From: Roseivivax halotolerans
GTDB taxonomy: Bacteria > Pseudomonadota > Alphaproteobacteria > Rhodobacterales > Rhodobacteraceae
NCBI RefSeq assembly: GCF_900115815.1
Contig: NZ_FOXV01000018.1
Coordinates: 1-39,909, forward strand
Reading direction: 5' to 3'
DNA length: 39,909 nt
Below, in pieces: positions 3,150 to 25,767 of this stretch. The position numbers and the translations under genes are program-made. Each line of letters starts with the position of its first letter. Position 1 is the stretch's first letter. A model generated the notes under the pieces. That model was given only the letters and a program-made list of their open reading frames with translations. It was not told the DNA's origin and ran no database searches.

Positions 3150-3410
3150 TTGCATATACCGCTGAACCAAACGCCAAAGCGACAAGCACGAGACGCGATC
3201 GACGCTCGGCTCGAAGCATCAGGCTGGGTGGTGCAAGACATCGAAGGGCTCTATTCAACGCGGCGTTGGACATCGCCGTGCGCCAATACCAGACCGATGT
3301 TGACCCGGCCGACTATGTTCTCTTCGTCAACCGCCAAGCCGTCGGCGTGATTGAGGCCAAACCCGACAATTGGGGTGTGAAGCTTACATCTGTTGAAGAG
3401 CAGTCTGAGC
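3150..3410 (+). pseudogene. hsdR: N-terminal remnant of type I restriction enzyme subunit HsdR
   Basis: The first frame reads NQTPKRQARDAIDARLEASG and then GWVVQDIEGL. After a one-base loss near 3252-3254 a second frame continues with FNAALDIAVRQYQTDVD and then ADYVLFVNRQAVGVIEAKPD. This is the N-terminal nuclease domain of HsdR, the motor and cleavage subunit of type I restriction systems; ADYVLFV and VIEAK carry the PD-(D/E)XK catalytic residues. Homology ends at VEEQS near 3409, where an IS3-family fragment begins on the other strand. Only about 85 of some 800-1000 residues remain, and no hsdM or hsdS is visible. The gene is dead through frameshift and truncation. The beginning is uncertain because no good ATG is present; a TTG at 3150 is the in-frame candidate. 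Confidence 0.75.
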
Positions 3411-3411
3411 T

Positions 3412-3703
3412 AATGGGATGAACTGCCAGCCGCTTCAGCTTCGACTTATCTTCTTCAAGCTGCTTCAATCGCCGGATCTCGGACACGCCCATCCCGGCAT
3501 AGACCTTCTTCCAGCGGTAGAACGTGGCTTCCGCCACGGCCATCTTACGGCAGATCTCGCCAACGCTCGTGCTGGCTTCCGCCTGCCTCAGCGCGAACGC
3601 GACCTGCTCATCAGTGAATCGTTTCTTCGGCATCTGGGCACTCCTCTCGCTTCCGAAGTGTGCCAGAAAAATCGCGGTCAGAATGGACTATTTTCAGGGG
3701 TCA
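3412..3703 (-). mobile_element. IS3-family insertion sequence fragment with one terminal repeat
   Basis: On the minus strand the sequence begins with TGACCCCTGAAAATAGTCC (outer base at 3703), a TG-starting end typical of IS3-family elements. An untranslated leader and the first two thirds of orfA follow. The element breaks off inside orfA at about 3425, where it abuts the hsdR remnant. The rest of orfA, all of orfB and the other terminal repeat are absent, so this piece cannot move itself. Confidence 0.75.
3425..3633 (-). pseudogene. Truncated IS3-family OrfA (helix-turn-helix protein)
   Basis: The start MPKKRFTDEQVAFALRQAEA, followed by a helix-turn-helix (EICRKMAVAEATFYRWKKVY) and a leucine-zipper-like beginning (EIRRLKQLEEDKSKLKRL), is the standard OrfA of IS3-family elements, which binds the terminal repeats. 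The frame stays open to 3313, but after KRLAV near 3425 it runs into antisense hsdR sequence. The last 30 or so codons are therefore chimeric, and the normal end and the frameshift to orfB are lost. Confidence 0.8.
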
Positions 3704-3838: not shown

Positions 3839-4567
3839 TCAAAGTTCCCCCGCATTCGGCACGCAATACCTAAGAATAATATCTTTCACCGTGCCACTGT
3901 AGGCCTCAAGAGAGATCTCGCGCCGCCGATACTTCGCACGCTTCACATACCAGTCCTGCAGAAGTGGCTTGATTAGCGCAGGCAGCAGCTCCGACGTTTC
4001 GGATCGAAACTGTCCCTGCGCTATTCCTGTTTTTATGACGTCCGCAAAAAGCCCCTCGGTCAGCGCTTCGCTGTCGATGGCCAGGCGCCGCTCGGCCGGC
4101 GGGAAGTTCTTAGCCTCCATGAATGCGAAAACGAACCAAGGTAGCAAATCTTCTGTCAAGCGAAGATGCGCGTCGACCATCCAGCGCAGATGCGCTACTG
4201 GATCGTCGGTGACGGCCTCTGGCGGATCGGTCAGCACGGTCTCCACCACATGCGTGACCTGCGCGAGGATCATCCGCAGCAACGTCGTCTTGCTATCGAA
4301 ATACGCGTAGAGACCGCCTGTCGACATGCCCGACTTCTCGGACAGGTCGCGCAGGGACATGGCCTGGAAGCCGCCCGAGTTCGACAGATCGAGCGCGGCT
4401 ACAAGGATGCGTTTGAGGCGCAGTACGGCGATCGAGGGATTGCGCACGGAGATCGTATCTTCATGCCGTGCCAGGATATCGCGGCACATGCCTTCCATGC
4501 TCAGAGCGGGTTTGTCGCCCCCAGCCTCGGGGGCAGAGACATCACTTCGATAATTTAATTGCGCCAT
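3839..4567 (-). CDS. TetR/AcrR family transcriptional regulator
   Basis: A 242-residue repressor-type protein. The N-terminal helix-turn-helix (about residues 60-100) reads SLRDLSEKSGMSTGGLYAYF followed by DSKTTLLRMIL, the TetR signature. The rest is an all-helical ligand-binding and dimerisation domain. It has an unusually long, poorly conserved leader of about 40 residues before the DNA-binding domain, so a start further in is possible. The assigned ATG at 4567 has only a weak ribosome binding site. It is divergent from the acyl-CoA operon beginning at 4655, and a short palindrome lies between the two, so it most likely represses that operon and itself and is released by an acyl-CoA or related intermediate. 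The ligand is inferred from context only. Confidence 0.9.
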   Translation of the reverse strand: MAQLNYRSDVSAPEAGGDKPALSMEGMCRDILARHEDTISVRNPSIAVLRLKRILVAALDLSNSGGFQAMSLRDLSEKSGMSTGGLYAYFDSKTTLLRMILAQVTHVVETVLTDPPEAVTDDPVAHLRWMVDAHLRLTEDLLPWFVFAFMEAKNFPPAERRLAIDSEALTEGLFADVIKTGIAQGQFRSETSELLPALIKPLLQDWYVKRAKYRRREISLEAYSGTVKDIILRYCVPNAGEL

Positions 4568-4626
4568 CTCGGGATTTCTCGACTTAACGTTGCGGCAAGC
4601 TACTTCATCATATACACGTAAACGAA

Positions 4627-4636
4627 CGAACGTTCG
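4627..4636. promoter_or_regulatory. Palindromic candidate TetR operator
   Basis: CGAACGTTCG is a perfect 10-bp palindrome in the 87-bp gap between the divergent TetR and SDR genes. It is preceded by a further CGAA unit, giving ACGAACGAACGTTCG. Position and symmetry fit an operator of the adjacent TetR protein overlapping the promoter of the catabolic operon. Binding is inferred. Confidence 0.5.
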
Positions 4637-4654: not shown

Positions 4655-5431
4655 ATGGCTATCGTGGTTTCTGCGCCATCAGGGGAATGGCCCGGCCTTT
4701 TGGATCGCACGGCGCTTGTGACCGGAGCATCATCCGGTCTCGGACGTCATTTCGCACAGCTTTTGGCAGGACAGGGCGTCGTGGTGACGCTGGCCGCGCG
4801 CCGCATCGACCGCATTCAATCGTTGTGCGAAGATATCCGCAGCGAGGGCGGCACCGCCCATGCGCTGGAGCTTGATGTCTCCGATCCGGCATCCATCGAG
4901 GCAGGGCTCGTTGGCACAGCGTTCGACATTGTCATCAACAACGCCGGGATCGCGGCGTCGGCCACGGCGCTCGATCATGATGACGAAACGCTCGACCGGA
5001 TCATCGACACCAACCTCAAGGGCCCCTTCCGCGTCGCACGGGCGGCGGCAAAGGCGATGATCGACGCGGGCAAAGGCGGCGTCATCGTCAATGTCGCGTC
5101 TATCCTGGGCGTGAGGGTGGCCAGCCATGTCTCTGCCTATGCGGCCTCGAAATCCGGGCTGATCCAGATGACGCGCGCGCAAGCGCTGGAATGGGCGCGC
5201 CATGGCATCCGGGTGAATGCGCTCTGCCCCGGCTATATCGAAACGGAGCTCAACGTCGATTTCTTCGCCTCCGAACCCGGTCAGAAGCTGATCCGCCGCG
5301 TCCCGCAGCGTCGCCTGGGGCAGACCCGCGATCTCGACGGCCCGCTTCTGCTGCTGGTCTCCGACTTGGGCAGTTTCATGACCGGAAGCGAACTCGTCGT
5401 CGATGGCGGCCATCTCGTCACCTCGATCTGA
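4655..5431 (+). CDS. Short-chain dehydrogenase/reductase (LvaD-like candidate)
   Basis: A classical SDR of up to 258 residues: cofactor loop GASSGLG (24-30), NNAG (95-98), catalytic Ser149, Tyr162 and Lys166 (SAYAASK), and a C-terminal substrate loop. It is the first gene of the operon, 12 bases before an acyl-CoA dehydrogenase. In the levulinate pathway an SDR (LvaD) reduces the 4-oxoacyl-CoA to the 4-hydroxyacyl-CoA; a similar step is my inference here. A 3-hydroxyacyl-CoA dehydrogenase is the main alternative. The start is doubtful: GGGAGG ends only one base before the ATG at 4655, whereas a GTG at 4664 lies 10 bases after it and loses only three residues, all ahead of the Rossmann fold. 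Confidence 0.85.
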   Translation: MAIVVSAPSGEWPGLLDRTALVTGASSGLGRHFAQLLAGQGVVVTLAARRIDRIQSLCEDIRSEGGTAHALELDVSDPASIEAGLVGTAFDIVINNAGIAASATALDHDDETLDRIIDTNLKGPFRVARAAAKAMIDAGKGGVIVNVASILGVRVASHVSAYAASKSGLIQMTRAQALEWARHGIRVNALCPGYIETELNVDFFASEPGQKLIRRVPQRRLGQTRDLDGPLLLLVSDLGSFMTGSELVVDGGHLVTSI

Positions 5432-5443
5432 AGGACCAAAGGC

Positions 5444-6652
5444 ATGGATTTCACTATTCCGGCAGAGATCGAGGGCTACCGCGCCCGCATCGCTACCTTC
5501 GTAGACGAGCGCATCCTGCCGCAGGAAGCCGATCCGGACGCGTGGGACGCACATGGCAACATCACGACAGACCGGCTGAACGAATTGCGCGCCGCTGCCA
5601 AGGCGGAAGCGCTCTGGTGTCTGCAGCTCAAGCGAGAGACCGGCGGTCAGGGCCTTGGCAAAGTGGGCATGGCCGTCTGTTACGAAGAGATGAACCGCTC
5701 CGTTTTCGGGCCTGTCGTGTTCAACTCCGCGGCGCCTGATGACGGCAACATGATGGTGCTCGAACAAGCAGGCACGCCCGAGCAGAAAGCGCGCTGGCTC
5801 GAACCGATCGTGTCGGGCGAGGTCCGGTCGTCCTTTGCGATGACAGAGCCCCATCCGGGCGGCGGCTCGGATCCGGGAATGATGTTGACCAAGGCTGAGA
5901 AAACATCGGACGGCTACATCATTCGCGGCCATAAATGGTACATCACCGGGGCGGAAGACGCGGATCATTTCATCCTGATGGCGCGCACGTCCGACGATCC
6001 ACGCCGAGGTCTGACAGCGTTCCTGCATGACAAATCCGATCCCGGCTGGCGGATCGACCGTCGCATCCCGATCATGGGGCCCGAGGAGCATGGTGGGCAT
6101 TGCGAGATCATCTATGACGAGCTGGTCCTGCCCGAAGACCGGGTGCTGCTGGGCGAAGGCCTTGGCCTGAAGGTCACGCAGATGCGGCTTGGCCCCGCAC
6201 GCCTGACCCATTGCATGCGGTGGCTGGGTCTGGCCAAGCGCTGCACCGAGATCGCGCGCGCCTATGCCGAGACGCGCGAAGGCTTCGGCGTCCGTCTGGC
6301 CGACCGGGAAAGCATCCAAATCAAGCTGGGCGATCTGGCCATGGGCATCGAGATGGGCCGCCTTTTGGTCATGAAAGCCGCCTGGGAACTCGATCAGGGC
6401 CGCTTTGCCAAAAAGGAGGTATCAATGGCGAAAATCCACGTCGCGAACCTTCTGCACAAGGCCGCCGATGTGGGCATCCAGATCAACGGGGCGCGCGGCT
6501 ATTCCAAGGATACGGTGCTGGAATGGATCTACCGCTACGCGCGCCAGGCCCGGCTCGTCGATGGGGCGGACGAGGTGCACCAGATGGTGCTGAACCGCCA
6601 TCTCGCCGCCGAGGATCGGGATTTCTGGAAGTGGGACACCGCGACCAGCTGA
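5444..6652 (+). CDS. Acyl-CoA dehydrogenase of ACAD10/ACAD11 type (LvaC-like candidate)
   Basis: A 402-residue flavoprotein with acyl-CoA dehydrogenase layout: helical N-terminal domain, beta domain with FAMTEP (131-136) and HKWYITG (163-169), and helical C-terminal domain. Two features set it apart from ordinary beta-oxidation enzymes. LGPARLTHCMRWLG (249-262) closely resembles the block I recall from ACAD10/11. At the C-terminus LVDGADEVHQ (371-380) stands where most family members have the catalytic Glu in a YEGT-type motif, so Asp373 replaces Glu, as I recall for ACAD11. ACAD10/11 and bacterial LvaC act on 4-phosphorylated acyl-CoAs and help move the hydroxyl to C3 rather than simply desaturate. 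With a phosphotransferase of the matching family two genes downstream, that role is likely here. FAD and CoA binding are expected from the family. Confidence 0.9.
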   Translation: MDFTIPAEIEGYRARIATFVDERILPQEADPDAWDAHGNITTDRLNELRAAAKAEALWCLQLKRETGGQGLGKVGMAVCYEEMNRSVFGPVVFNSAAPDDGNMMVLEQAGTPEQKARWLEPIVSGEVRSSFAMTEPHPGGGSDPGMMLTKAEKTSDGYIIRGHKWYITGAEDADHFILMARTSDDPRRGLTAFLHDKSDPGWRIDRRIPIMGPEEHGGHCEIIYDELVLPEDRVLLGEGLGLKVTQMRLGPARLTHCMRWLGLAKRCTEIARAYAETREGFGVRLADRESIQIKLGDLAMGIEMGRLLVMKAAWELDQGRFAKKEVSMAKIHVANLLHKAADVGIQINGARGYSKDTVLEWIYRYARQARLVDGADEVHQMVLNRHLAAEDRDFWKWDTATS

Positions 6653-6679
6653 GTGTCACGCAAGGAAGGGAGGCCGTAC

Positions 6680-8260
6680 ATGTTCACAGACCCGCATCTG
6701 GCGCCGCGCTCGGCGAATTTCCAGCCTGTGACACCGCTCGACCTTCTCGATCAGGCGCTCGAAGTGCATGGAGCCCGCCCGGCGGTCGCCTGGGCCGCGC
6801 ATGTCTGGAGCTACGATGAGTTCGGCGCGCTCGTGGCGCGTCTGGTGGGCCATCTGCGCGCGTGCGGCATCGGCCCCGGCGATGTCGTGTCGGTAATCGT
6901 GGGCAACCGGCCCGAGATGATCGCGGCGCATTTCGCAGTCCCAGCCCTGGGCGCGGTGCTGAACACGATCAACACCCGGCTCGGGCCGGACGACGTGGCC
7001 TACATCCTCGATCATGCGGGCAGCAAGGCGCTTCTGTGCGAACGGGATCTGCGGCCCGATCTGGACTTCGACATGCCCGTGGACGTGCTGTGCAGCGCGC
7101 CCGGGGCGGGCGACGGGCTCGATTTGTTTGCGGGTGACGCGCCGCCGCTCGATCTGTCAGGGGCGGTCACGGACGAGGCGCAGCCCATAAGCCTGAACTA
7201 CACGTCGGGCACGACGGGCCGGCCGAAAGGCGTCGTCTACACCCATCGCGGGGCCTATCTGAACGCCGTCGGAAATGTGCTGGCGCTGGGGTTCACCGCC
7301 GAGACGCGGTATCTTTGGACGCTGCCGATGTTTCACTGCAACGGCTGGTGCCATGCCTGGGCGGTCACCGCCGCCGGGGGGATGCATGTGTGCCTCGACC
7401 GCGTGGATCCAGTCCTGATCCTCGACACGATTGCGGCCCACAGGGTCACGCATATGGCCTGCGCGCCGGTCGTCCTTTACATGCTTCTCGAACACGCCAC
7501 CGAGCCGCCGCCGGTGCGCGTGCAGGTGGCCACGGGCGGGGCCGCACCCACGCCCGCGCTTCTGGCGGGACTGTCCAAGCTCAGCTTCGATCTGCACCAC
7601 CTGTACGGGCTGACCGAAAGCTTCGGCCCGGCCACGATCAACGATCCCGGCGACGCGTCGGCCGATATCGAAACCCGCGCGGCGCTCATGGCGCGTCAGG
7701 GGCGGCGGCATGTCACAGCCGGGCGCGCGCGCGTCGTCGACGAGGCGGGCCGCGACGTGCCCGCCGATGGGCAGACCATGGGCGAGATCGTGCTGGCCGG
7801 GAACACGGTCATGGCCGGGTATTACAGGAATGCCGAGGCCACCGAGGCCGCGTTCAAGAACGGGGGGTTCCATTCGGGCGATATCGCGGTGATGCATCCC
7901 GATGGCCAGATCGAGATCCGCGACCGGCTCAAGGACGTGATCATCACCGGCGGCGAGAACATCTCAAGCCTCGAGATCGAAAAGACGCTGCACAGTCATC
8001 CCGGTGTGCGTCTGGCCGCCGTCGTCGCCGCGCCGCACCCGAAATGGGGCGAAACGCCCTGGGCCTTCGTCGAAACGAAGGAGGCCGACAGCGTCACCGA
8101 AGAGACGCTGGAGCGGTTCTGCCGGGACCATTTGAGCGGGTTCAAACAGCCCAAGCGCTTTATCTTCGGCGAGCTTCCAAAGACCGCGACCGGCAAGATC
8201 CAGAAGTTCATGCTGCGCGAGGTCGCGCGCGACATGGCCAACCGCGAGGACGTGGCATGA
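6680..8260 (+). CDS. Acyl-CoA synthetase, AMP-forming (LvaE-like candidate)
   Basis: A 526-residue adenylate-forming ligase that would activate a carboxylic acid to its CoA thioester using ATP. It shows the P-loop-like motif YTSGTTGRPKG (174-184), YGLTES in the adenylate pocket, the hinge region GDIAVMHPDGQIEIRDRLKD and the C-terminal PKTATGKIQKF with the catalytic lysine. The frame is open from a GTG at 6653 that touches the preceding stop, but the ATG at 6680 has AAGGGAGG about seven bases upstream and matches normal N-termini, so I use it. The gene lies between the acyl-CoA dehydrogenase and the phosphotransferase. In a levulinate-type pathway it would do the first step, making the 4-oxoacyl-CoA. 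Chain-length preference cannot be read from the sequence. Confidence 0.92.
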   Translation: MFTDPHLAPRSANFQPVTPLDLLDQALEVHGARPAVAWAAHVWSYDEFGALVARLVGHLRACGIGPGDVVSVIVGNRPEMIAAHFAVPALGAVLNTINTRLGPDDVAYILDHAGSKALLCERDLRPDLDFDMPVDVLCSAPGAGDGLDLFAGDAPPLDLSGAVTDEAQPISLNYTSGTTGRPKGVVYTHRGAYLNAVGNVLALGFTAETRYLWTLPMFHCNGWCHAWAVTAAGGMHVCLDRVDPVLILDTIAAHRVTHMACAPVVLYMLLEHATEPPPVRVQVATGGAAPTPALLAGLSKLSFDLHHLYGLTESFGPATINDPGDASADIETRAALMARQGRRHVTAGRARVVDEAGRDVPADGQTMGEIVLAGNTVMAGYYRNAEATEAAFKNGGFHSGDIAVMHPDGQIEIRDRLKDVIITGGENISSLEIEKTLHSHPGVRLAAVVAAPHPKWGETPWAFVETKEADSVTEETLERFCRDHLSGFKQPKRFIFGELPKTATGKIQKFMLREVARDMANREDVA

Positions 8261-9315
8261 GCGATGTGTCCGCCCCCGCCGCCGGGACCGAGTTCGACCC
8301 CGAGGCCCTGCGCGCCTGGCTGGCCGCACGCGACGTACGCGGGGAGGCGCTGTCGCTCGACCGAATCGGCGGGGGGCAATCGAACCCGACCTGGTTCGTC
8401 ACCATCGGCGATCACCGGCTGGTTCTGCGCAAGAAACCGGGCGGGCCGATCCTGAAAGGCGCCCATGCGATCGAGCGGGAATTCCGCGTGCTGCGGGCGC
8501 TGCGCGACACAGATGTGCCCGTGCCCGACGCGCTGTGGCTCGAGGAAGACCCCGAGATCCTTGGCACGCCCTTCTACCTTATGAACCGGCTTGAGGGCCG
8601 TGTGTTCGAGGACACCGCCCTGCCCGGTGTCTCGCCCGAGCACCGGCGCGAGATGTATCTCGACATGGCGCGCACGCTGGCGCGGCTGCACGCGTTGCGG
8701 CCCGACGTGGTCGGCCTGTCGGATTACGGCCGCCCGGGCAATTATTTCGAGCGGCAGATCGGGCGCTGGACCAAGCAATATCAGGACTCGACCGGCCCCC
8801 GGATCGCCGATCTCGACCGGCTGGTCGAATGGCTGCCGGACAACATGCCCGAGGACGAAGGCGCGGTCTCCATCGCGCATGGCGATTTCCGGGTCGGCAA
8901 CATGATGTTTCACCCGACCGAGCCGCGCGTCGTGGGCGTGCTGGATTGGGAACTCTCGACGCTCGGGAATCCACTGGCCGATCTGGGGTTCTGCATTTTA
9001 CCCTGGTACTCCGCACCGAATGAGTATGGCGGGTTGAAAGGCACAGACTGGCGCGCGGCGGGGATTCCCGAGCGCGACGCATTCATAGCCGAATACCGGC
9101 GCCATGCGCGGCCAACTGCGCCGCTTTCGGCCTTTCATGTGGCATTCGCGCTTTTTCGCTTCGCAGTGATCTTTGTCGGTATCGCAGACCGGGCGCGCAG
9201 CGGCTCTGCGGCGTCCGACGAAGCTGCGTCTCTCGGACCCTTAGCTGAGCGCTTCGCGCGAAGGGGAGTCGAGGTCATCGAAGCCAATGAAAAACGCATC
9301 GGAGAGACGGTATGA
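8257..9315 (+). CDS. APH-fold phosphotransferase of ACAD10/11 type (LvaA-like candidate)
   Basis: A 352-residue kinase-fold protein of the aminoglycoside phosphotransferase superfamily: glycine-rich loop IGGGQSN (37-43), Lys in VLRKKP (59-60), catalytic HGDFRVGN (208-215) and metal-binding VLDWELSTLGNPLADLG (about 228-244). The long HPTEPRVVGVLDWELSTLG block is what one sees in the kinase half of eukaryotic ACAD10/11 and in bacterial LvaA-type proteins, which phosphorylate the hydroxyl of 4-hydroxyacyl-CoA. This points to a CoA-ester kinase, not drug resistance. It overlaps the synthetase stop as ATGA and its own stop overlaps dctQ as ATGA, so translation is coupled. LvaA of Pseudomonas putida works with a small partner, LvaB; I see no such gene in this window. 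Confidence 0.88.
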   Translation: MSDVSAPAAGTEFDPEALRAWLAARDVRGEALSLDRIGGGQSNPTWFVTIGDHRLVLRKKPGGPILKGAHAIEREFRVLRALRDTDVPVPDALWLEEDPEILGTPFYLMNRLEGRVFEDTALPGVSPEHRREMYLDMARTLARLHALRPDVVGLSDYGRPGNYFERQIGRWTKQYQDSTGPRIADLDRLVEWLPDNMPEDEGAVSIAHGDFRVGNMMFHPTEPRVVGVLDWELSTLGNPLADLGFCILPWYSAPNEYGGLKGTDWRAAGIPERDAFIAEYRRHARPTAPLSAFHVAFALFRFAVIFVGIADRARSGSAASDEAASLGPLAERFARRGVEVIEANEKRIGETV

Positions 9316-9845
9316 AGGTTCTAAAGGTGATCGACGCCTTCAATGAAAGCCTGGGCAAATTTGTGAGCTTTCTTATCTGGGCGGGGATTGTAGTGCTCTG
9401 CTTCGAGGTCGTCGCCCGCTATGTCTATCAGCAGCCGACCATCTGGGCCCATGGCTATACGCAGCGGATATTCGGTGCCTATTTCGTCCTTGTTGGCGCC
9501 TACACCCTCCTTCGCAAAGACCATGTGCGCGTGGATTTATTACTGAATATCGGCTCGCAGCGCTGGCGCGCATTCCTCGACCTTCTGAATTTTGGCTTCC
9601 TCGTGCTCTGGGGTGCAGTCCTATCTTATGAAGCGTTTTGGTTCTTCGAGGACAGCTGGCGGTTCAATGAGGTTGACGACAGCGCGCTGCGCCATCCGAT
9701 GTGGCCGGTAAAGCTCGCCATGTTCGTCGGCGTGACCGCAATTACTCTTCAAGGTCTGGCCGAGGCAGTCCGATCCATCGTTCTTATCTTTAATCCGACG
9801 GCCGATGTCGGTCGCAAAGACTATTCAGTGAGTGCCGCACGATGA
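9312..9845 (+). CDS. dctQ: TRAP transporter small permease (DctQ family)
   Basis: A 177-residue inner-membrane protein with four predicted hydrophobic segments, the usual size and layout of DctQ, which pairs with the large permease of a tripartite ATP-independent periplasmic transporter driven by a sodium or proton gradient. Family hallmarks are visible: VLCFEVVARYV in the first helix and a conserved R-KDHVRVDLLL segment after the second. ATGA overlaps tie it to the phosphotransferase upstream and dctM downstream, so the transporter is made together with the catabolic enzymes and probably imports their substrate. Confidence 0.92.
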   Translation: MKVLKVIDAFNESLGKFVSFLIWAGIVVLCFEVVARYVYQQPTIWAHGYTQRIFGAYFVLVGAYTLLRKDHVRVDLLLNIGSQRWRAFLDLLNFGFLVLWGAVLSYEAFWFFEDSWRFNEVDDSALRHPMWPVKLAMFVGVTAITLQGLAEAVRSIVLIFNPTADVGRKDYSVSAAR

Positions 9846-11149
9846 GTCCGGAAATCCTGACAATCGGCATGTTCAGCATGCTTATCGTGTCGATCCTTCT
9901 CGGTGTGTCGCTCACCTTCGCGCTCGGTGGGACGGCTGTGATCTTCGGCCTTCTGACCTTCGGTCTGAACGGAATGTTCACTATCGTATCCACGATGTTC
10001 GGCTCGATGTGGTCGATCCTCCTTTCGGCGATCCCGCTCTTTGTCTTCATTGGAGTCGCGCTGGCACGCTCAAAGATAGCTGATGATCTTTACCAAGCCT
10101 TTTTTCTGTGGTCGGGCCGCACACCCGGCGGATTGCTGATCGGCACGTCGGGTTTCGCCGCTACATTGTCAGCGATGACCGGAAGCTGCGCTGCGTCGAC
10201 CGTGACCACTGGTCTCGTTGGTATGCCCGCCATGCAAAAGCGCGGGTATGACAAACGCTTCATGCTCGGGACAATCGGCGCGTCCGGGACGCTCGGCATC
10301 CTCATACCTCCATCAATCACACTTATCCTGATCGGGCTTCAAACTGGACAATCAGTGGGGCGTCTTTTCCTCGGAGGTTTGATCGCGGGACTTCTGCTTC
10401 TTGCAATGTTCATGGCTTACGTTTTTCTCAAGAGCAGATTTTCGCCTCACCTCGCACCGGGTTCAGATGAACGAGCATCGCTAAGCGAACGGATCAGGTC
10501 CCTGCGATCAGTGTTTTTACCGCTTGTCGTCATTCTATCCGTACTCGTGTCGATCTTTGCTGGCATTGCAACGCCAACCGAGGCGGCGGCTGTAGGGGCC
10601 GCGGCCGTAGTGCTCTCGGTGGCAATCCGGCGGGAATTGAACTGGACCTACATCAAGGCCGTCAGCCACGACACGGCAAGCTTGACTGGGATGGTCATTT
10701 GGATCGTCTTCGGAGCGTCAGCCTTCGTCGCAGTCTACGGAGGCGCAGGTGGGACGCGGTTCATGCAAGGATATCTTCTTGGGCTGGATATCGAGCCTTG
10801 GATGATGATCCTTTTGCTGCAGGCAATCACGCTGGTGCTCGGCATGTTCCTCGATCCCGTAGGCATCATTCTCTTGGTTCTGCCGATCTTTTTCCCGATT
10901 GCAGTCCAACTCGAATATGACCCGATCTGGTTCTGCATCCTGTTCCAGCTGAATCTCTGTATCGGCTACATTTCTCCACCCTTCGGCTACAACCTCTTCT
11001 ACCTCAAGACGCTCAGCCCTGACACACCGATATCTGAGATCTACCGAGCGATCATGCCGTTCCTGCTACTGATGCTGGCGACCGGTGCATTGATCTTTCT
11101 GTTTCCGGAGCTGTTGACCAGCTTCACCGCCCTTCCCGACGGCCGCTGA
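9842..11149 (+). CDS. dctM: TRAP transporter large permease (DctM family)
   Basis: A 435-residue protein with about 12 hydrophobic segments, the transport subunit of the TRAP system. Typical DctM features are the SAMTGSCAASTVTTG loop after the early helices, the GASGTLGILIPPSI motif and the second-half SATEAA-like ATPTEAAAVGA sequence. It follows dctQ with an ATGA overlap and is followed 42 bases later by the binding protein gene. Substrate specificity is set by the DctP protein, not by this subunit. Confidence 0.94.
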   Translation: MSPEILTIGMFSMLIVSILLGVSLTFALGGTAVIFGLLTFGLNGMFTIVSTMFGSMWSILLSAIPLFVFIGVALARSKIADDLYQAFFLWSGRTPGGLLIGTSGFAATLSAMTGSCAASTVTTGLVGMPAMQKRGYDKRFMLGTIGASGTLGILIPPSITLILIGLQTGQSVGRLFLGGLIAGLLLLAMFMAYVFLKSRFSPHLAPGSDERASLSERIRSLRSVFLPLVVILSVLVSIFAGIATPTEAAAVGAAAVVLSVAIRRELNWTYIKAVSHDTASLTGMVIWIVFGASAFVAVYGGAGGTRFMQGYLLGLDIEPWMMILLLQAITLVLGMFLDPVGIILLVLPIFFPIAVQLEYDPIWFCILFQLNLCIGYISPPFGYNLFYLKTLSPDTPISEIYRAIMPFLLLMLATGALIFLFPELLTSFTALPDGR

Positions 11150-11191
11150 GGCCCGAGGAAGACACGTCCAATAAAGGGAGAAGGAAAGACC

Positions 11192-12244
11192 ATGACTGAG
11201 AACAAAAAGAGCGTCTCGCGCCGCGGCTTCCTGGCCGGATCGGCAGGCACGGCAGCGGGTTTAACCCTCGCTGCACCGCCGGCGATCGCACAAGGCACAA
11301 CCACTTGGCGCATGCAAACCCACTGGCCGACCGGCAACTGGTACTATGACGAAGTCTTCGTGCGGTATTGCAACCGCATTACGGAGGCCACCAATGGCGA
11401 ATTGACAGTGGAACCCTACGCTCCAGAGGCCATAGTTCCGACTGGAGAAGTGCTCAATGCTGTTCGTCGCGGCCTTTTGGAAAGCGCCTTCATTTATCCA
11501 GCATATTGGATCGGACGAATCCCGGCTGCAGGCCATCTGAATGGCCATATCGGGACATGGCAGGGCCATGAAGAGATGGATATTTTCTATTTCGAAATGG
11601 GCGCGATCGACGTAATCCGAGAAGCCTATGCCGCCCAAGGAGTGCATCAGGTCGGACCCGTTTCCTATTCGGGCCTAACGCTTTGGGCGAACCGCCCCTT
11701 ACAAACGGTAGACGATTTCTCGGGTTGGCCGGTTCGGTCTACCGGGGCCGCAGGTCTTGTACTGGAAAAGGTTGGAGCGGCTCCGGTCTCCATTCCAGGC
11801 GGCGAACTCTACCAAGCGCTTCAAACAGGCGTTGTCGATGGAGCACACTGGGGCTCCACAGCCACGGCATGGGGGATGAACTTTCAGGAGGTATGTTCCC
11901 ACATCATTGAGCCCGATCTTGTTGGCCACCTCAATGGCGAGGTTATGGTCGGTCTTGATGCTTGGAATTCGATCGGGACAGAACTTCAAGCAGTAGTAAA
12001 CGAAGTGACCCGTGCCACCTCCGCGGAGGCAGCGGCACATTTCCTGTACCAGGACTACCTTTTCAAGCAGGAATTCGTCAACGATTTCGAAGGCACCCTA
12101 ACACGCATGGACGATGACGCGGTACGTCAGATGCGTACCGCCTCGCTTGAGGTTGTCGATGAGTTCTCCGAACAAGATCCAGAGTACTCTGGGCGCCTCG
12201 GAGAGATGCTGCGCGAATTCCTGACAATGACCGGACGCATCTGA
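11192..12244 (+). CDS. dctP: TRAP substrate-binding protein (DctP family) with Tat signal
   Basis: A 350-residue periplasmic binding protein. The N-terminus SVSRRGFLAG, a hydrophobic stretch and APPAIAQG form a twin-arginine signal peptide with cleavage near residue 34, so the protein is probably exported folded. The DctP fold is evident; Arg182 in GWPVRSTG is at the position of the arginine that salt-bridges a carboxylate in most DctP proteins, which fits a carboxylic-acid ligand as expected beside an acid-activating operon. A strong ribosome binding site (AAGGGAGAAGGAAAG) precedes the ATG. Here dctP comes last in its transporter, after dctQ and dctM, and is followed by a terminator. Confidence 0.93.
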   Translation: MTENKKSVSRRGFLAGSAGTAAGLTLAAPPAIAQGTTTWRMQTHWPTGNWYYDEVFVRYCNRITEATNGELTVEPYAPEAIVPTGEVLNAVRRGLLESAFIYPAYWIGRIPAAGHLNGHIGTWQGHEEMDIFYFEMGAIDVIREAYAAQGVHQVGPVSYSGLTLWANRPLQTVDDFSGWPVRSTGAAGLVLEKVGAAPVSIPGGELYQALQTGVVDGAHWGSTATAWGMNFQEVCSHIIEPDLVGHLNGEVMVGLDAWNSIGTELQAVVNEVTRATSAEAAAHFLYQDYLFKQEFVNDFEGTLTRMDDDAVRQMRTASLEVVDEFSEQDPEYSGRLGEMLREFLTMTGRI

Positions 12245-12266
12245 TCAAGTCACGACAAGAAAACAA

Positions 12267-12297
12267 GGAGGGCATGGGAATGCCCTCCAGCTTTTAT
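12267..12297 (+). terminator. Rho-independent terminator after dctP
   Basis: A perfect 9-bp stem, GGAGGGCAT paired with ATGCCCTCC, with a GGGA loop and a following AGCTTTTAT tract, starts 23 bases after the dctP stop. It should end the catabolic and TRAP transcript. The quinone oxidoreductase downstream may need readthrough or its own promoter. Confidence 0.85.
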
Positions 12298-12324
12298 AAA
12301 TTTGTGCGCCAATAAGAGGCAATA

Positions 12325-13314
12325 ATGACCCTGCCCCGTTCCATGAATGTAGTAGAGATTTCCGAATATGGCGGGCCCGACGTGCTGAAGCCCACAATGG
12401 CGCCAGTGCCGCGCCCAGGCGATGGGCAGATCCTCATCGAGATCGACCATGCCGGGGTTAACCGCCCCGACGCGCTGCAGCGCGCAGGCAATTACGCGCC
12501 GCCTCCCGATGCTTCGCCTCTGCCGGGGCTCGAGGCTGCAGGCCATGTGGCCGCGGTCGGCGCGGGCATCACCCGCTGGTCCGAGGGCGACGCGGTCACG
12601 GCCCTCCTGCCGGGCGGCGGTTACGCGGAATATGCCGTCACTGACGCCCGCCAAGCGCTGCCCGTGCCCAAGGGCATGAGCTTCGAGGAAGCTGCGGGTC
12701 TTTGCGAGAATTATTTCACCGTCTGGACCAATGTATTCATGCGCGGCGGCCTCAAGGCCGGTGAGCGGTTCTTGGCCCATGGCGGGTCCTCGGGGATTGG
12801 CACGACCGCCATCCAACTGGCCAAGCTGCGCGGTGCACGGGTCTTTGCCACCGCGGGCACGGCCGAGAAATGCGCAGTCTCCGAAAAGCTCGGAGCAGAG
12901 ACGGCGATCAATTACCGCGAGACGGATTTCGTCGAAGCGCTGAAGGCGGAAGGCGGGGCCGACCTGATCCTCGACATGGTGGGCGGCGATTACATCGCGC
13001 GCAATCTCACGGCGCTTGCCATGGACGGGCGGCTTGTCCAGATCGCCTATCTGCAGGGCTCCAAAGTCGAGATCGACCTGATGCAGGTTATGACCCGGCG
13101 GCTGACCTTCACCGGCTCCACCCTGCGCCCGCAATCGCTGGACGCGAAGGCCGAGATCGCCGCGGCGCTCGAGGCCGAGGTCTGGCCACACCTCGAAAGC
13201 GGTGCCATCGGTCCCGTGCACGACAGCACCTTCCCGCTCGAGGAGGCGGCCAAAGCGCATGCGCGCATGGAAAGCTCTACCAATATCGGCAAAATCATCC
13301 TGAAGGTGGCCTGA
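12325..13314 (+). CDS. NAD(P)H:quinone oxidoreductase, PIG3-like MDR family
   Basis: A 329-residue medium-chain dehydrogenase/reductase without the zinc ligands of alcohol dehydrogenases. It has the PIG3/quinone-oxidoreductase hallmark NRPDALQRAGNYAPPP near the N-terminus, PGLEAAGHV, and a nucleotide-binding HGGSSGIGTTAIQLAK. Such enzymes reduce quinones or alpha,beta-unsaturated carbonyls with NADPH. It follows the terminator by 28 bases and precedes the hydrolase gene by 3, so these two form a unit that may still be partly co-transcribed with the operon. A role in the acyl-CoA pathway is possible but cannot be deduced from sequence. Confidence 0.9.
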   Translation: MTLPRSMNVVEISEYGGPDVLKPTMAPVPRPGDGQILIEIDHAGVNRPDALQRAGNYAPPPDASPLPGLEAAGHVAAVGAGITRWSEGDAVTALLPGGGYAEYAVTDARQALPVPKGMSFEEAAGLCENYFTVWTNVFMRGGLKAGERFLAHGGSSGIGTTAIQLAKLRGARVFATAGTAEKCAVSEKLGAETAINYRETDFVEALKAEGGADLILDMVGGDYIARNLTALAMDGRLVQIAYLQGSKVEIDLMQVMTRRLTFTGSTLRPQSLDAKAEIAAALEAEVWPHLESGAIGPVHDSTFPLEEAAKAHARMESSTNIGKIILKVA

Positions 13315-13317
13315 GCG

Positions 13318-14277
13318 ATGGCGCCCTGTCCCGATTGGCGCAGGGAAGAGCGTTCGATCCGGCACAGTGTCGCCTCGTCAAACGAGGCGGGCCTGTGGCT
13401 GACGGTACGCCAGCGCGGCGAGGGTCTGCCAGTGCTGTTCGTACATGGCGCGACCTTCTCGGGACGCATCTTCGATATTCCGCATCCCCATCTGAACTGG
13501 CTGCAGGTCATGGCCGATGCGGGCTACGGCGCCTATGCGCTCGATCTGCGCGGCTACGGCCTTTCGAAGCCTGCAGTCTGTCCGACAGAGGGGGTCTATG
13601 CCACGGGCGCGCAGGCAATCGCCGATATTGGCGATGCGGTCGACTGGATCATGGCGCGGCATGACGGTGCCCGGGTGGCGCTGGTGGGCTGGTCCTGGGG
13701 CACGTTGACCACGTCGCGCTACGTGATGGCGGACGGACGCGAAAAGATCCGCAGCCTGTGTCTTTACGCCCCGATCTACGCGGAGAAGAACGCGGGCTGG
13801 ATCGACATGCTGGCCGATCCCGCAGACCGGTCCCGCCTGCGCCCGCTTGGGCCTTACCGCCGGGTGAATCTGCCAGATACGCGGATCCGGTGGGATGAAC
13901 AGATTCCCGACCGGGCCGATTGGCGCAGCGATGCGGCGCTTATGGCGCTGGTTGGGTCCTCCTGCGCAGATGACTGCTCATCCGGTGACACAGATCCGCC
14001 GAGCTTCCGCGTGCCCAACGGAACCTTCGTGGAGTTGTGGGAGTGCTTCAACGGGCGCCCGATCCACGACCCTGCGGGTGTCGCCTGTCCCACTATGCTG
14101 ATCCGGGGAACGCAGGACACGACCTCGACCCGCAGCGACGCGCTGGCGCTCTTCGACCGACTGACTTGCCTCGACAAAGATTACGTCGAGGTCCACGGTG
14201 GCACGCATTTCATCAACGCCGAACGCCGCGCGCGTCCGGTGTTCCATGCGGTGACGGACTTCATCCGGCGTAATTGA
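13318..14277 (+). CDS. Alpha/beta hydrolase with complete catalytic triad
   Basis: A 319-residue serine hydrolase of the alpha/beta fold: oxyanion-hole region FVHGATFSGRIFD (41-53), nucleophile elbow GWSWG with Ser126, acid Asp267 in RGTQD and His297 in HGGTHFIN. No signal peptide, so cytoplasmic. It follows the quinone oxidoreductase by three bases. The substrate is unknown: an esterase or a lactonase would fit, and because 4-hydroxy acids readily form gamma-lactones, opening such a lactone is an attractive idea given the upstream operon. That link is inference from position only. Confidence 0.88.
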   Translation: MAPCPDWRREERSIRHSVASSNEAGLWLTVRQRGEGLPVLFVHGATFSGRIFDIPHPHLNWLQVMADAGYGAYALDLRGYGLSKPAVCPTEGVYATGAQAIADIGDAVDWIMARHDGARVALVGWSWGTLTTSRYVMADGREKIRSLCLYAPIYAEKNAGWIDMLADPADRSRLRPLGPYRRVNLPDTRIRWDEQIPDRADWRSDAALMALVGSSCADDCSSGDTDPPSFRVPNGTFVELWECFNGRPIHDPAGVACPTMLIRGTQDTTSTRSDALALFDRLTCLDKDYVEVHGGTHFINAERRARPVFHAVTDFIRRN

Positions 14278-14371
14278 GACCATCCCAGGGGCTCTAACAG
14301 GTTACGGCTTTGTGGACGGCTTGACGAGGCCTCGACCCGCTATTTCGGACACTCTTTAGTAATGAATCACA

Positions 14372-14653
14372 CTACGGTACGACACAGGTGTCCCCCGATC
14401 CGATCCGCCGCGTCGCCTCATCGAGGACCTCGACCAGTCGCGTCTGCGGGCCGTGGCGAGAGAAAAGCAGCCCGATCCGCCTTTCGGGCGCGTGCGCCGG
14501 CAGCGGCACCTTCCTCAGCCTGATGCCTTCCGGCCGCGGGCCGGGCCAGTCCGGCACGACAGCGACGCCGAGCCCCCGATTGACCATCAACGCAATCGCG
14601 TCCAACGCGTCGAGCTCGAACCGGGGCTGGAACGGCAGCCGGGTGCTTTCCAC
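14372..14653 (-). pseudogene. C-terminal remnant of a LysR-type regulator
   Basis: The 93-residue frame reads FELDALDAIALMVNRGLGVA and then VVPDWPGP, followed by LRKVPL and GLLFSRHGPQTRLVEVL. This is the last third of a LysR substrate-binding domain. About 200 residues, including the helix-turn-helix, are missing, and the sequence upstream on this strand (above 14650) does not encode them. The ATG at 14653 is therefore probably not a genuine start. It may once have regulated the hydrolase and oxidoreductase genes next to it. Left as a remnant after deletion. Confidence 0.75.
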
Positions 14654-15186
14654 TGAATGCTCCTGTTATCTCATGGGGGAAAAGTTAGAAATTTTCAGCG
14701 GCTATTCATTCAACCGTCAGAGCGCCTGATTTTGCGTGACAACGCAGGGGAGCGGCCGCCGAATGATGCGCGTTTGCGCGAACGACTGCTCCTTTGGTGC
14801 GGCGATGCAGCTAAATCGCTGCCGTCACAAGGCAGCTCTGGGCCGATCATGATCGCCCGGAAAGTAGGGTGGGAAGCGGTCGTTCGCTGCAGCCGTTAGG
14901 GCAACCAACGCCGCGTCCAGATCCCGACATTCAGCCAGGTGCCTGAAACTGTACCTCCAAAAGCAGATCGGACGCCGGACAAAAGACCTCCGCTCTGTGC
15001 ACTACCCGAGACTTACCGACCGTGAAGCACTTCCACTTGCCTCAGCTGCAGGATGAAGCCCTCGGGCTTTTTCTCGCTTCACAGACATACTATGGTCCGC
15101 TGCACAGCACCACGGCGCGAGCGTCCAGCTCGTCGTGCGCAGTGATTTCTCGACAACGTAAGCAACTGGCAATACGCCTTGATATG
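14654..15186. other. Gap between LysR remnant and TRAP operon
   Basis: These 533 bases contain short open frames on both strands, but none has a ribosome binding site or recognisable protein. I see decayed or non-coding DNA. The only distinct structure is a short hairpin with a T tract at 15056-15072. Confidence 0.5.
15056..15072 (+). terminator. Small hairpin with T tract, possible orphan terminator
   Basis: AAGCC and GGCTT pair around a CTCG loop and are followed by TTT. This is a weak terminator shape on the plus strand, with no intact plus-strand gene before it. It may be left from a lost gene. Confidence 0.3.
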
Positions 15187-16515
15187 TCAAAGGAAGAAAG
15201 TTGCGGTCGCCGGGGCAAGGGCGACGATCACAAGGACGGCAAGCATCACAGCGATGAAGGGAAGAGTGGCACCGAAGATCTGCTCGACTGACACATCCGG
15301 GTCGTTCAGCGTGTTGTGCACCGTGAAAACGGAAATACCGAAGGGTGGCGTAAGCAGCCCGATCTCGACTGCGATCACGGTGACGATCCCGAAATGCATC
15401 AGGTCGATCCCCATGCCCTGAGCGATCGGCGCGGCAATCGGCACCATGATGAGCAGGATGGAAGTGCTATCCAAGATCATGCCCATCAGCAGGATGATCA
15501 GCGCATAGAAGAACAGAAAACCCAGCGGACCGAAGCCGGACTCCGTCACCAACCCGGCGATGGCATTGGGCAGGCCCGCGATGGCCAGCATGCGAGAATA
15601 GAACGACGCCGCGACCAGAAGCAGCAGGATCGAAACCGAGATCACGCCGGTCTGCTTCATCACTTGCCAGAGCTTGTGCCGATCCAGGCTGCGCCGCGAC
15701 AGCGCGACCAACAGCGCGCCGAAAGCTCCCACGCCGCCCGCCTCGGTAGGCGTGAAAAACCCTGTATACAGCCCGCCGAGCACGAGGATCACGAGGAGGA
15801 TGATCGGGATGAGCTTCGCAACCATCCGCCCCAGCGGCATCGGCTGGTGATCCCGTTCGAGCCGCCGCTTTCGCGTGCCCTCGGGGTCGTCCAGCACGAA
15901 GCCCGGAAACAGGATCGTGACGCTGATTAGCATGACCACGAAGCCTCCCGCCAGCATCAGCCCGGGGATGATGCCCGCAATGAACATGCCGCCAATCGAG
16001 ACCTCGGCCAGCACGCCGTAGATGATTAGCAACAGGCTTGGGGGGATTAGCATGCCCAGCACGGACGATCCCGCAACCGTTCCTGCAGAAAAAGCGGGGC
16101 GATAGCCGTGGCGCTTCATCTCGGGCACCGCGACCCGGGTGAAGACGGCCGCCGACGCGATTGAGACGCCCGTCACTGCAGCAAAGATCGTGTTGGCCGC
16201 AACCGTAGCGACCCCGAGGCCGCAGATCATGCGGCGCAATAGTTCCTCGGCCACCTCGAACGTGTCGCGGCCGACGTTCGAGACGCTGACAAGAAGGCCC
16301 ATGAGTACGAATAGCGGAATCGTGGCAAAGAGATAGTCGGCGATCCCGGAATAGGCCGTGAGCTCGAGCATCCGGAAAGCCAGGTCGATGTTGCCGCGGA
16401 TCAGCCAAATGCCGACGAAGGCCACGCCAAACAGGGCATAGGCGATCTGCATGCCCAGAAGGACAAGCGCGATCAGGACCCCGATTAGGACGAAACCGAC
16501 GGCGAGTGTGGTCAT
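15187..16515 (-). CDS. dctM: TRAP transporter large permease (DctM family), second system
   Basis: A 442-residue membrane protein with about 12 hydrophobic segments. DctM signatures include AAVFTRVAVPEMKRHGY, GSSVLGMLIPPSLLLIIYG and FFTPTEAGGVGAFGAL. The frame is open further upstream, to 16629, but the ATG at 16515 overlaps the dctQ stop as ATGA and begins directly before the first membrane helix (MTTLAVGFVLIGVL), so I take it as the start. Last gene of the minus-strand molybdenum hydroxylase/TRAP operon. It lies in the plus-to-minus convergent region, with no clear terminator after it. Confidence 0.94.
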   Translation of the reverse strand: MTTLAVGFVLIGVLIALVLLGMQIAYALFGVAFVGIWLIRGNIDLAFRMLELTAYSGIADYLFATIPLFVLMGLLVSVSNVGRDTFEVAEELLRRMICGLGVATVAANTIFAAVTGVSIASAAVFTRVAVPEMKRHGYRPAFSAGTVAGSSVLGMLIPPSLLLIIYGVLAEVSIGGMFIAGIIPGLMLAGGFVVMLISVTILFPGFVLDDPEGTRKRRLERDHQPMPLGRMVAKLIPIILLVILVLGGLYTGFFTPTEAGGVGAFGALLVALSRRSLDRHKLWQVMKQTGVISVSILLLLVAASFYSRMLAIAGLPNAIAGLVTESGFGPLGFLFFYALIILLMGMILDSTSILLIMVPIAAPIAQGMGIDLMHFGIVTVIAVEIGLLTPPFGISVFTVHNTLNDPDVSVEQIFGATLPFIAVMLAVLVIVALAPATATFFL

Positions 16516-17078
16516 GTCCGGCTCCGGATGTTGCGCATTTCCTGCGTGGCGCTGTAAAGCGCGGCGAGCACGGCCAGCGCCGCGCCCAGAACGGTGATGC
16601 CGCGGAACGGCCAGGTCGGAATGGTCCAAACGCCCTGCACGCCGAAGAATTCCGCAGAGGCCCAGCTTTCGGGCAGCTTAGGCCATGACGCCCAGAGGAT
16701 CAGGGCAAAGACAATAGCGCCGGCGATGCAGAATGCGGCCTCCAGCGCAGAAACGGCGGCAGGCGAAGCGCCTTGGAGCCGCCGCACGAGGAAATCGGCG
16801 CGGGTCAGGCGGCGCTGTAGTATCGCGGCCGGCACCTGAAGGAACACTATGGCGACGACCGTGCGCGCGGCGATCTCGGACACCCCGGTAATCGGCGCGT
16901 CGAGAAAGTTGCGGCCGATCACGTCCGCCACGATCAGCAACATCAGCGCACCGATCGCCGCCGTACCGATGGCGGACATGGCCGCCGCAGCACTGCACAA
17001 GATCGCGCCCAGTGGCGCGTCGGAAAAGGCGGGTACAAACCCGTCATCGTCGAAGGCGGCCGAATTGTCGTCGCTCAT
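16512..17078 (-). CDS. dctQ: TRAP transporter small permease (DctQ family), second system
   Basis: A 188-residue protein with four hydrophobic segments and the DctQ pattern: VADVIGRNFLDAPITGVSEI in the second part of the first helix pair, and RRLTRADFLVRRL before the third helix. It follows dctP after a 71-base gap that contains a strong hairpin and overlaps dctM by four bases. It partners DctM in the membrane complex that receives substrate from the DctP protein encoded at 17150-18202. Confidence 0.9.
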   Translation of the reverse strand: MSDDNSAAFDDDGFVPAFSDAPLGAILCSAAAAMSAIGTAAIGALMLLIVADVIGRNFLDAPITGVSEIAARTVVAIVFLQVPAAILQRRLTRADFLVRRLQGASPAAVSALEAAFCIAGAIVFALILWASWPKLPESWASAEFFGVQGVWTIPTWPFRGITVLGAALAVLAALYSATQEMRNIRSRT

Positions 17079-17104
17079 GCCCCGGTCCCATCGTCAGGAA
17101 AACG

Positions 17105-17127
17105 CCGCCCGGCTTGACGCCGGGCGG
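17105..17127 (-). terminator. Hairpin between dctP and dctQ (attenuator or mRNA stabiliser)
   Basis: A perfect 9-bp GC stem (CCGCCCGGC and GCCGGGCGG, five-base loop) is followed on the minus strand by CGTTTTCC. It can act as a partial terminator or protect the upstream dctP message, giving more binding protein than permease, a common arrangement in transporter operons. Confidence 0.7.
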
Positions 17128-17149
17128 ACGCGGTACGTTCAAGGATGGC

Positions 17150-18202: not shown

Positions 18203-18223
18203 GGGGTCTCCTCCCTGGTGTCG

Positions 18224-18243
18224 CGGCGCCTCCTCCAGCGCCG
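18224..18243 (-). promoter_or_regulatory. Small hairpin between hydroxylase large subunit and dctP
   Basis: CGGCGC and GCGCCG form a 6-bp stem around an 8-base purine-rich loop (TGGAGGAG on the minus strand). It sits in the 48-base gap after the large subunit gene and just before the dctP ribosome binding site. No U tract follows, so processing or stabilisation is more likely than termination. Confidence 0.35.
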
Positions 18244-18250
18244 TCTTGGT

Positions 18251-22945: not shown

Positions 22946-23098
22946 TCATCGCTGCGTCTGCGAACTGGCCACCTCAAGCGACAGTCAATTCGGGCTCCGA
23001 GCAGCCATTCGTGCAGCGCTCCCGTGGTAGCGTGGTAGGATCGCCCTGCCGACATGATGTCGGAGTTGCGGAGGATGGGGCGGACCGGAGGATCCACC

Positions 23099-24895: not shown

Positions 24896-24910
24896 GATGT
24901 TTCTCTGGTC

Positions 24911-25711: not shown

Positions 25712-25735
25712 GCAGTCTGTCCTTTCAATGAAATC

Positions 25736-25767
25736 GGCCGCCCCGCCTGAAATCCGGCGGGGCGGCC
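25736..25767 (-). promoter_or_regulatory. Strong 12-bp hairpin between phnD and phnC
   Basis: GGCCGCCCCGCC pairs perfectly with GGCGGGGCGGCC around an eight-base loop. The hairpin begins 24 bases after the phnD stop and ends just before the phnC ribosome binding site. There is no real U tract, so stabilisation of the phnD message or partial attenuation is more likely than full termination. Confidence 0.7.

Follow-up and report, generated by a model that had tools for sequence, protein, structure and literature searches.

Positions 1 to 39,909 of contig NZ_FOXV01000018.1 (C42) of Roseivivax halotolerans (genome 3.77 Mb, 99.79% complete), hereafter the window, contain a tight operon at 4655-12244 that encodes a short-chain dehydrogenase/reductase (SDR), an acyl-CoA dehydrogenase-fold enzyme (ACAD), an acyl-CoA synthetase (ACS), an aminoglycoside phosphotransferase (APH)-fold kinase and the subunits DctQ, DctM and DctP of a tripartite ATP-independent periplasmic (TRAP) transporter. 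The open reading frames (ORFs), to each of which Pfam assigns the expected family, bear out this grouping, which had been proposed in a first-pass annotation made from the sequence alone. We consider it probable that a small carboxylic acid with a 4-oxo or 4-hydroxy group, of the levulinate or 4-hydroxyvalerate type, is taken up and degraded through this operon by phosphorylation and elimination. The TRAP transporter would take up the acid and the ACS would form its CoA thioester, the SDR would convert the 4-oxoacyl-CoA to a 4-hydroxyacyl-CoA, the kinase would phosphorylate the 4-hydroxyl group, and the ACAD-fold enzyme would remove the phosphate to give a 2-enoyl-CoA for beta-oxidation. Judged from its genes, this is a hybrid lva pathway, in which LvaA and LvaB appear to be replaced by one ACAD10/11-type kinase, and the symporter and sigma-54 regulator by a TRAP transporter and a TetR-family regulator. 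The novelty lies in the hybrid composition, in the coupling to TRAP and in an LvaB-free kinase within an lva-like setting, the chemistry itself being known.

The predicted elimination enzyme and its kinase

R626, H634, R637 and the catalytic D753 of mouse ACAD11 are given as features of ACAD10/11 and LvaC in passages of PMC12440821, and a passage of PMC11342911 adds a proline as an ACAD10/11 feature. By alignment, the window ACAD has R248, H256, R259, the catalytic Asp D373 and P90 at these positions, and all five residues recur in each of the 96 window-type ACADs compared (window included) and in all eight LvaC-clade sequences. The five canonical ACAD10/11 sequences have the four catalytic residues as well, and the proline, found in only two of them, is given little weight as a marker. 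Among the seven other ACADs of the genome, the catalytic place is held by Glu in four and by Ala in one and is not covered in two, so that Asp occurs in none of the five that cover it; the His is missing from all seven, and a single one of them shares one of the arginines. Because the Arg/His/Arg set and the catalytic Asp reported for 4-phosphoacyl-CoA elimination are present, a phosphorylation-elimination route is the best reading, with the ACAD as the predicted 4-phosphoacyl-CoA-eliminating enzyme.

The same route is supported by searches with proteins of plasmid p12939-PER (L108), our reference for the lva pathway, whose gene set and order are those given for strain KT2440 in passages of PMC6692424 and whose LvaB is named in RefSeq. 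The plasmid LvaC found the window ACAD as its best match in the genome (44% identity, vs 37% for the next), and in a one-directional search the plasmid LvaD found the window SDR as the best of 32 genome matches (54% vs 42% for the next). The phosphorylation-dependent route for a 4-oxo or 4-hydroxy acid suggested by the first-pass annotation is thus supported by these matches and by the ACAD residues. Its description of the route as complete was too strong, the substrate, the DctP ligand and the last steps of beta-oxidation all being predictions; within about 10 kb, thiolase genes occur in 13 of 81 loci and 3-hydroxyacyl-CoA dehydrogenase genes in three of 81 (raw counts, with no background rate).

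In the ACAD tree, which has long outgroup branches and leaves out row L008 (stop inside), three clades were recovered: a canonical one with ACAD11 (100/100, five rows), an LvaC clade (95/84) and a window-type clade (99/100), the branching order among them being unsettled. Membership of the window ACAD in the ACAD10/11 clade is ruled out, as the fully supported canonical clade excludes it. Its identity is 37% to mouse ACAD11 and 35-36% to the canonical ACAD of its own genome. We computed 37% also between mouse ACAD11 and the LvaC of p12939-PER, which disagrees with the 62% to ACAD10 and 56% to ACAD11 given for LvaC in a passage of PMC11342911; the LvaC of KT2440 was not the sequence compared.

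The kinase is of the ACAD10/11 type. It is 47% identical to 3dxp, 43-44% to the kinase of a canonical kinase-ACAD pair on contig C32 of the same genome, 41% to the kinase domain of mouse ACAD11 and 29% to LvaA, and in the kinase tree the LvaA family and the ACAD11 type are separated by a branch of length 2.7 (support 100/100), the window kinase lying on the ACAD11 side. It keeps D220, N225 and the CoA-binding R176 of ACAD11 (D210, N215 and R166 in the window), and an Arg equivalent to R176 occurs in none of 14 LvaA-like rows and none of three LvaA rows. Its identification as LvaA is ruled out by the 29% identity and by its position across the 100/100 branch.

A search of the genome for LvaB (DUF6285) at E 0.001 gave no match, a threshold at which weak DUF6285 relatives could escape. 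Passages of PMC6692424 report that LvaB of P. putida binds LvaA and is required for growth on levulinate, and describe an lva region of P. citronellolis with no lvaB. Since no lvaB is seen in that region or near the LvaA-type kinase of locus L066, which has no DUF6285 call, LvaB is not tied to kinases of the LvaA type in every case. The same source describes a histidine phosphatase gene adjoining the lvaA homologue of P. citronellolis, and in lva-like loci of Stutzerimonas and Thermus (L107, 6887-8004; L200, 7128-8128) a histidine phosphatase gene adjoins DUF6285.

The first-pass annotation had seen here both the enzyme set LvaD, LvaC, LvaE and LvaA and the separated version of the fused ACAD10/11. 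Of the first, the SDR agrees with LvaD; the ACAD is the best LvaC match of the genome and stands in a clade of its own, the kinase is not LvaA, and the ACS is not specifically LvaE. The second holds for the kinase; the ACAD lies outside the ACAD10/11 clade and the genome's own separated counterpart is the C32 pair. The phylogeny that the annotation had called for places the kinase with ACAD11 and not with LvaA, and the ACAD in its own clade beside LvaC.

Recurrence of the gene set, the importer and alternative readings

Of 198 genomes of Rhodobacteraceae, 27 (own included) carry an ortholog of the window ACAD at E 1e-100 or better, with 61-81% identity excluding the window itself, and 93 carry the canonical ACAD type at the same threshold. 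The window set is the rarer, accessory system. Related species also have this ACAD on plasmids, at up to 81%. Scanning a named collection gave at least 549 ACAD relatives, of which we took the best 80, and shares given below apply to these 80 loci; companions were counted by tblastn with identity limits of 45-55%, over a stretch reaching from about 4.5 kb upstream to about 6.5 kb downstream of the ACAD. The 27 family genomes and the 80 named loci are not independent (L120 = G137, L187 = G170 = L052, L170 = G030, L141 = G024, L125 = G002). By their titles the 80 are alphaproteobacterial, except two Granulosicoccus metagenome-assembled genomes (MAGs) and one record titled Enemella. In the Granulosicoccus MAGs (L186 and L188, Gammaproteobacteria) both the ACAD (72%) and the kinase (58%) are of the alphaproteobacterial type, which points to lateral transfer or mis-binning. 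In the record titled Enemella evansiae (Actinomycetota; L125, JAFKDC010000009.1), the ACAD has the same position as in L046 (G002:C9) of Rhodobacteraceae, and probably either the title is wrong or the assembly is contaminated.

Near the ACAD, the 80 loci contain the SDR in 68 cases, an ACAD11-type kinase in 62, an LvaA-type kinase in six, neither kinase in 12 and both in none; an ACS of the window kind is found in 27 and a divergent TetR gene of the window kind upstream in 32. Window-type ACADs with an LvaA-type kinase occur in L061, L066 and L067 of the same family, in L095-L100 of other groups and in six Methylobacterium loci (L131, L135, L137, L138, L148, L150), mostly with a DUF6285 ORF and with an SDR of the same family nearby. 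Because L095-L100 were found through a DUF6285 search, their DUF6285 is no independent count; in the six LvaA-type loci of the 80, DUF6285 was detected in two by tblastn and in all six by gene calls, which in the relatives' loci come from a simple codon-usage script rather than a published gene finder. Kinase type needs two changes among the 84 labelled rows of the ACAD tree (66 + 18 of 101, the other 17 being without a nearby kinase, truncated or not judged). As window-type ACADs are accompanied by a kinase from one or the other of two deeply separated families, never by both in the 80 loci, the simplest reading is that either kinase would make the same phosphoester for a window-type ACAD. 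Bacterial kinase and ACAD proteins that are separate polypeptides can stand in for the ACAD10 domains, according to a passage of PMC11342911.

The TRAP importer is a recurring but optional addition to these ACAD loci. It was found in L116, L117, L118, L119, L121, L124, L132 and L187 (= L052), and in L048 and L209, the window being the eleventh case. The TRAP genes lie directly 3' of the kinase gene in all eight named TRAP loci, and the kinase and DctQ genes overlap by 4 bp in eight of nine TRAP loci examined, window included, and by 1 bp in the ninth (L119); in L116 there is no ACS between ACAD and kinase. By sequence, the solved structures nearest to DctP are those of TTHA0766, a lactate protein, and of the TakP group. 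According to passages of PMC1839085, TakP binds the carboxylate through Arg177 and Tyr100, and the 2-oxo group through a cation that is coordinated by Gln156, Glu214, Glu240 and the carbonyl of Trp215. The window DctP family keeps Arg182, Tyr105 and Trp220, and has Ser158 and His219 at the positions of TakP cation ligands (Gln, Glu/Asp) in 10 of 10 operon-linked DctPs and four of four further ones, these positions being placed through TTHA0766 and 4yzz, as TakP was not in the alignments, and that of Glu240 not with certainty. Because the Arg and Tyr are kept and the TakP cation ligands replaced, the ligand is likely a carboxylate, though not one of the 2-oxo acids; 4-oxo acids are among the possibilities and are not singled out.

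The same pocket residues occur in a sister TRAP subfamily (L197-L199 and L206-L208; DctP 51-53%), whose neighbours are acyl-CoA synthetase-like genes by tblastn and, by eye, enoyl-CoA hydratase and OsmC-like genes. Its members are probably importers of other CoA-activated acids.

Several of our findings count against an operon devoted to a levulinate-type acid. The 12 loci with neither kinase show that kinase and ACAD are not obligatory neighbours. DctP of the window kind is near the ACAD in only eight of 80 loci, TRAP genes stand behind the kinase in two of 26 fetched family neighbourhoods (L048, L052), five of 390 genomes from the order, this one counted, have a DctP match (E 1e-90 or better), and TRAP presence needs seven changes on the ACAD tree. 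The DctP relatives at 51-53% (n = 3), which stand beside other acyl-CoA genes, share the Ser/His pocket, so that the pocket gives no pointer to a 4-oxo acid in particular. The union of the window ACAD clade with the LvaC clade is neither required nor rejected (p-AU 0.17). Finally, an LvaE query found the window ACS second (493 bits, 50-51%), after C31:289188-290777 (547 bits, one stop inside the match); with a better LvaE match elsewhere in the genome, a specific orthology of the window ACS to LvaE is not supported.

It comes only slightly short of an even chance that the chemistry is the same and the natural substrate something other than levulinate or 4-hydroxyvalerate, either a gamma-lactone or unsaturated 4-oxo acid, which the alpha/beta hydrolase encoded behind DctP would open and the medium-chain dehydrogenase/reductase (MDR) encoded there would reduce before activation, or a longer 4-hydroxy acid. 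PIG3-type enzymes, to which the MDR belongs, reduce enone-like compounds. An MDR of at least 60% identity was found in six of the 80 loci and the hydrolase in three, all of them TRAP loci, and both recur in L209; a 53% MDR on the other strand lies in a seventh TRAP locus, L124. The ACS, moreover, scores 608.9 bits with the PRK08162 family, below the cut-off of 677, vs 856 for LvaE, which is above it. On the other side, DctP and the MDR have a possible terminator between them, the hydrolase matches characterised enzymes only weakly (haloperoxidases, a gamma-lactamase and epoxide hydrolases in the PDB), and under the limits used for the 80 loci the MDR is absent from two and the hydrolase from five of the eight TRAP loci.

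It is unlikely that the TRAP transporter is a passenger for an unrelated solute, merely co-transcribed with the enzymes. Its rarity, its scatter on the ACAD tree and the company of other acyl-CoA genes kept by the 51-53% DctP relatives would be explained, but the recurrent 4-bp overlap with the kinase gene, the position directly 3' of it in all eight named loci and the retained carboxylate-binding Arg and Tyr speak against it, and that sister TRAP systems also adjoin acyl-CoA genes fits carboxylic acids. Rather improbable, too, is a role in the detoxification of 4-hydroxy acids from lipid peroxidation instead of feeding: mammalian ACAD10/11 act on 4-hydroxy acids, as passages of PMC12440821 and PMC11342911 report, but the linked importer and the LvaD-type SDR speak for the use of a 4-oxo acid from outside the cell, and the genome has a second, canonical ACAD10/11-type pair. 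Least probable by far is an ordinary acyl-CoA dehydrogenase with an unrelated APH-fold kinase beside it by chance, for although the family libraries (Pfam, NCBIfam) name the operon enzymes only generically, the Asp in place of Glu and the Arg/His/Arg set in 96 of 96 sequences rule out an ordinary dehydrogenase, one of the two kinase types lies beside the ACAD in 68 of 80 loci, and the kinase groups with the ACAD11 kinase domain.

For and against a broader proposal we find the balance even: a third form of phospho-elimination, built on an ACAD clade that belongs neither to LvaC nor to ACAD10/11 and has worked with two kinase lineages unrelated to each other (the LvaA type, mostly with LvaB, and the ACAD11 type, needing no LvaB), and coupled in Rhodobacterales to a TRAP transporter whose DctP would recognise a 4-oxo or 4-hydroxy acid without the cation of TakP. 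If this is true, LvaB would be dispensable through kinase exchange, and there would be a TRAP system for 4-oxo and 4-hydroxy acids. The ACAD fold with Asp and Arg/His/Arg, mostly with an LvaD-like SDR, would be constant in the pathway, and the kinase, regulator and importer exchangeable; we predict that the window kinase can substitute for LvaA and LvaB. The operon also makes available for study a relative of the ACAD11 kinase that is bacterial and LvaB-free, together with candidates for a binding protein and for a TetR sensor of levulinate-like acids, and it allows a guess at the way in which marine bacteria use them. Among the entries listed by searches of open-licence literature, none describes a TRAP system for levulinate-like acids or this gene arrangement, from which absence in print does not follow.

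Operon layout, regulation and surrounding genes

The coordinates of the operon and of the features next to it are given in Table 1. Overlaps of 4 bp join ACS to kinase, kinase to DctQ and DctQ to DctM, and make translational coupling at these three joints plausible; the other joints are close, with 12 bp between SDR and ACAD, 27 bp between ACAD and ACS (none if the ACS starts at an in-frame GTG at 6653, which is also possible) and 42 bp between DctM and DctP. The translational coupling to the TRAP genes noted in the first-pass annotation is therefore plausible for the joints up to DctM; DctM and DctP do not overlap. The MDR and hydrolase genes, which recur behind DctP in some relatives, lie outside 4655-12244.

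Table 1. Features of the operon and its immediate surroundings (window coordinates).
Feature	Position	Strand	Evidence
TetR-family regulator	3839..4567	-	Pfam TetR_N 42.6 bits; divergent from operon
Predicted TetR operator, palindrome, consensus CGARCGNNCGYTCG	4623..4636		exact match in window
SDR, LvaD-like, predicted 4-oxoacyl-CoA/4-hydroxyacyl-CoA reductase	4655..5431	+	54% to LvaD of p12939-PER
ACAD, predicted 4-phosphoacyl-CoA phosphate-eliminating	5444..6652	+	R248, H256, R259, D373, P90; 44% to LvaC
ACS, PRK08162-like	6680..8260	+	NCBIfam PRK08162 608.9 bits, cut-off 677; LvaE 50-51%
APH-fold kinase, ACAD10/11 type, predicted 4-hydroxyacyl-CoA 4-kinase	8257..9315	+	D210, N215, R166; tree and residues
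DctQ, small TRAP membrane subunit	9312..9845	+	Pfam DctQ
DctM, large TRAP membrane subunit	9842..11149	+	NCBIfam TIGR00786 299.3 bits, cut-off 268.45
DctP, periplasmic binding protein, related to lactate protein TTHA0766 and TakP group	11192..12244	+	Arg182, Tyr105 kept; Ser158, His219 at replaced positions
Possible hairpin terminator between DctP and MDR	12267..12288		9-pair stem, 6 G-C; weak
MDR, PIG3-family quinone-type oxidoreductase, possible enone reductase	12325..13314	+	NCBIfam TIGR02824 458 bits, cut-off 297
Alpha/beta hydrolase, possible esterase or lactonase	13318..14277	+	Pfam Abhydrolase_6 64 bits

Control by TetR, also put forward in the first-pass annotation, agrees with the divergent regulator gene and with the palindrome CGARCGNNCGYTCG, a predicted conserved TetR operator that would control the operon. 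With at most one mismatch it occurs in 31 of 34 gaps between TetR and the next gene, window included, the exceptions being L117, where TetR is not adjacent to the operon, L131 and L149. There are 35 such sites in 7.8 kb of gaps vs 30 in the 657 kb making up the rest of the same loci, counts that are descriptive, as the consensus was derived from inverted repeats in these same gaps and related loci share ancestry. The window alone has two matches vs 2.08 expected, and the evidence for the operator is comparative only. Promoter-like sites in the region number two vs 2.5 expected, and terminator-like sites 11 vs a mean of 7.7 (sd 3.3) in shuffles, which is not clearly above chance.

Pieces of a transposase (3313-3633) and an integrase (23054-23974) identified by Pfam, and a sub-threshold integrase-core match (79-1626), flank the region, which fits an accessory stretch. 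On the minus strand at 15187-21959 lies a second TRAP system, with DctM and DctP by Pfam and an ORF (16512-17078) between them, beside the large subunit of a molybdenum hydroxylase (18251-20632). Also on the minus strand, 24104-26675 contains a phosphonate-type periplasmic binding protein (Pfam, 25791-26675) with, by eye, the ATPase and permease of an ATP-binding cassette (ABC) transporter. The stretch 28201-39297 holds, again by eye, galactose (Leloir-type) genes, a sugar ABC importer and a LacI-type regulator.

Comparison with known systems

Homologues of lvaABCD in Alphaproteobacteria have already been reported (a passage of PMC6692424, citing Rand 2017). With the lva operon of Pseudomonas the window operon shares an SDR at 54% to LvaD, an ACS at 51% to LvaE, an ACAD at 44% to LvaC with the same active-site residues, and the same predicted steps. 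It differs in its kinase, which at 29% belongs to another family, in that LvaB was not found in the genome by the search above, in its gene order (SDR-ACAD-ACS-kinase), in having a TetR regulator rather than the sigma-54 regulator LvaR, and in having a TRAP transporter rather than LvaFG (DUF485 and an acetate-type symporter). The window-clade loci with an LvaA-type kinase differ from it in the kinase family and, mostly, in the presence of DUF6285. DctP resembles TakP and TTHA0766 in its carboxylate-binding Arg and Tyr, and departs from them in having Ser and His instead of the Gln and Glu/Asp cation ligands.

Animal ACAD10 and ACAD11 share with the window the kinase type (41%) and the catalytic residues of both active sites. 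In contrast to the fused animal kinase-ACAD, the two proteins are separate ORFs in the window, the ACAD (37%) falls outside the ACAD10/11 clade, and the set adds an SDR, an ACS and an importer. The canonical kinase-ACAD pair of the same genome (C32:154145-156273) is made of the same two protein families, but its neighbours are a different ACS, together with an MDR and an SDR-like gene (L015, G000:C32:144000-163000, about 10137-16542). The operon thus resembles both the lva pathway and ACAD11, and is a strict member of neither.

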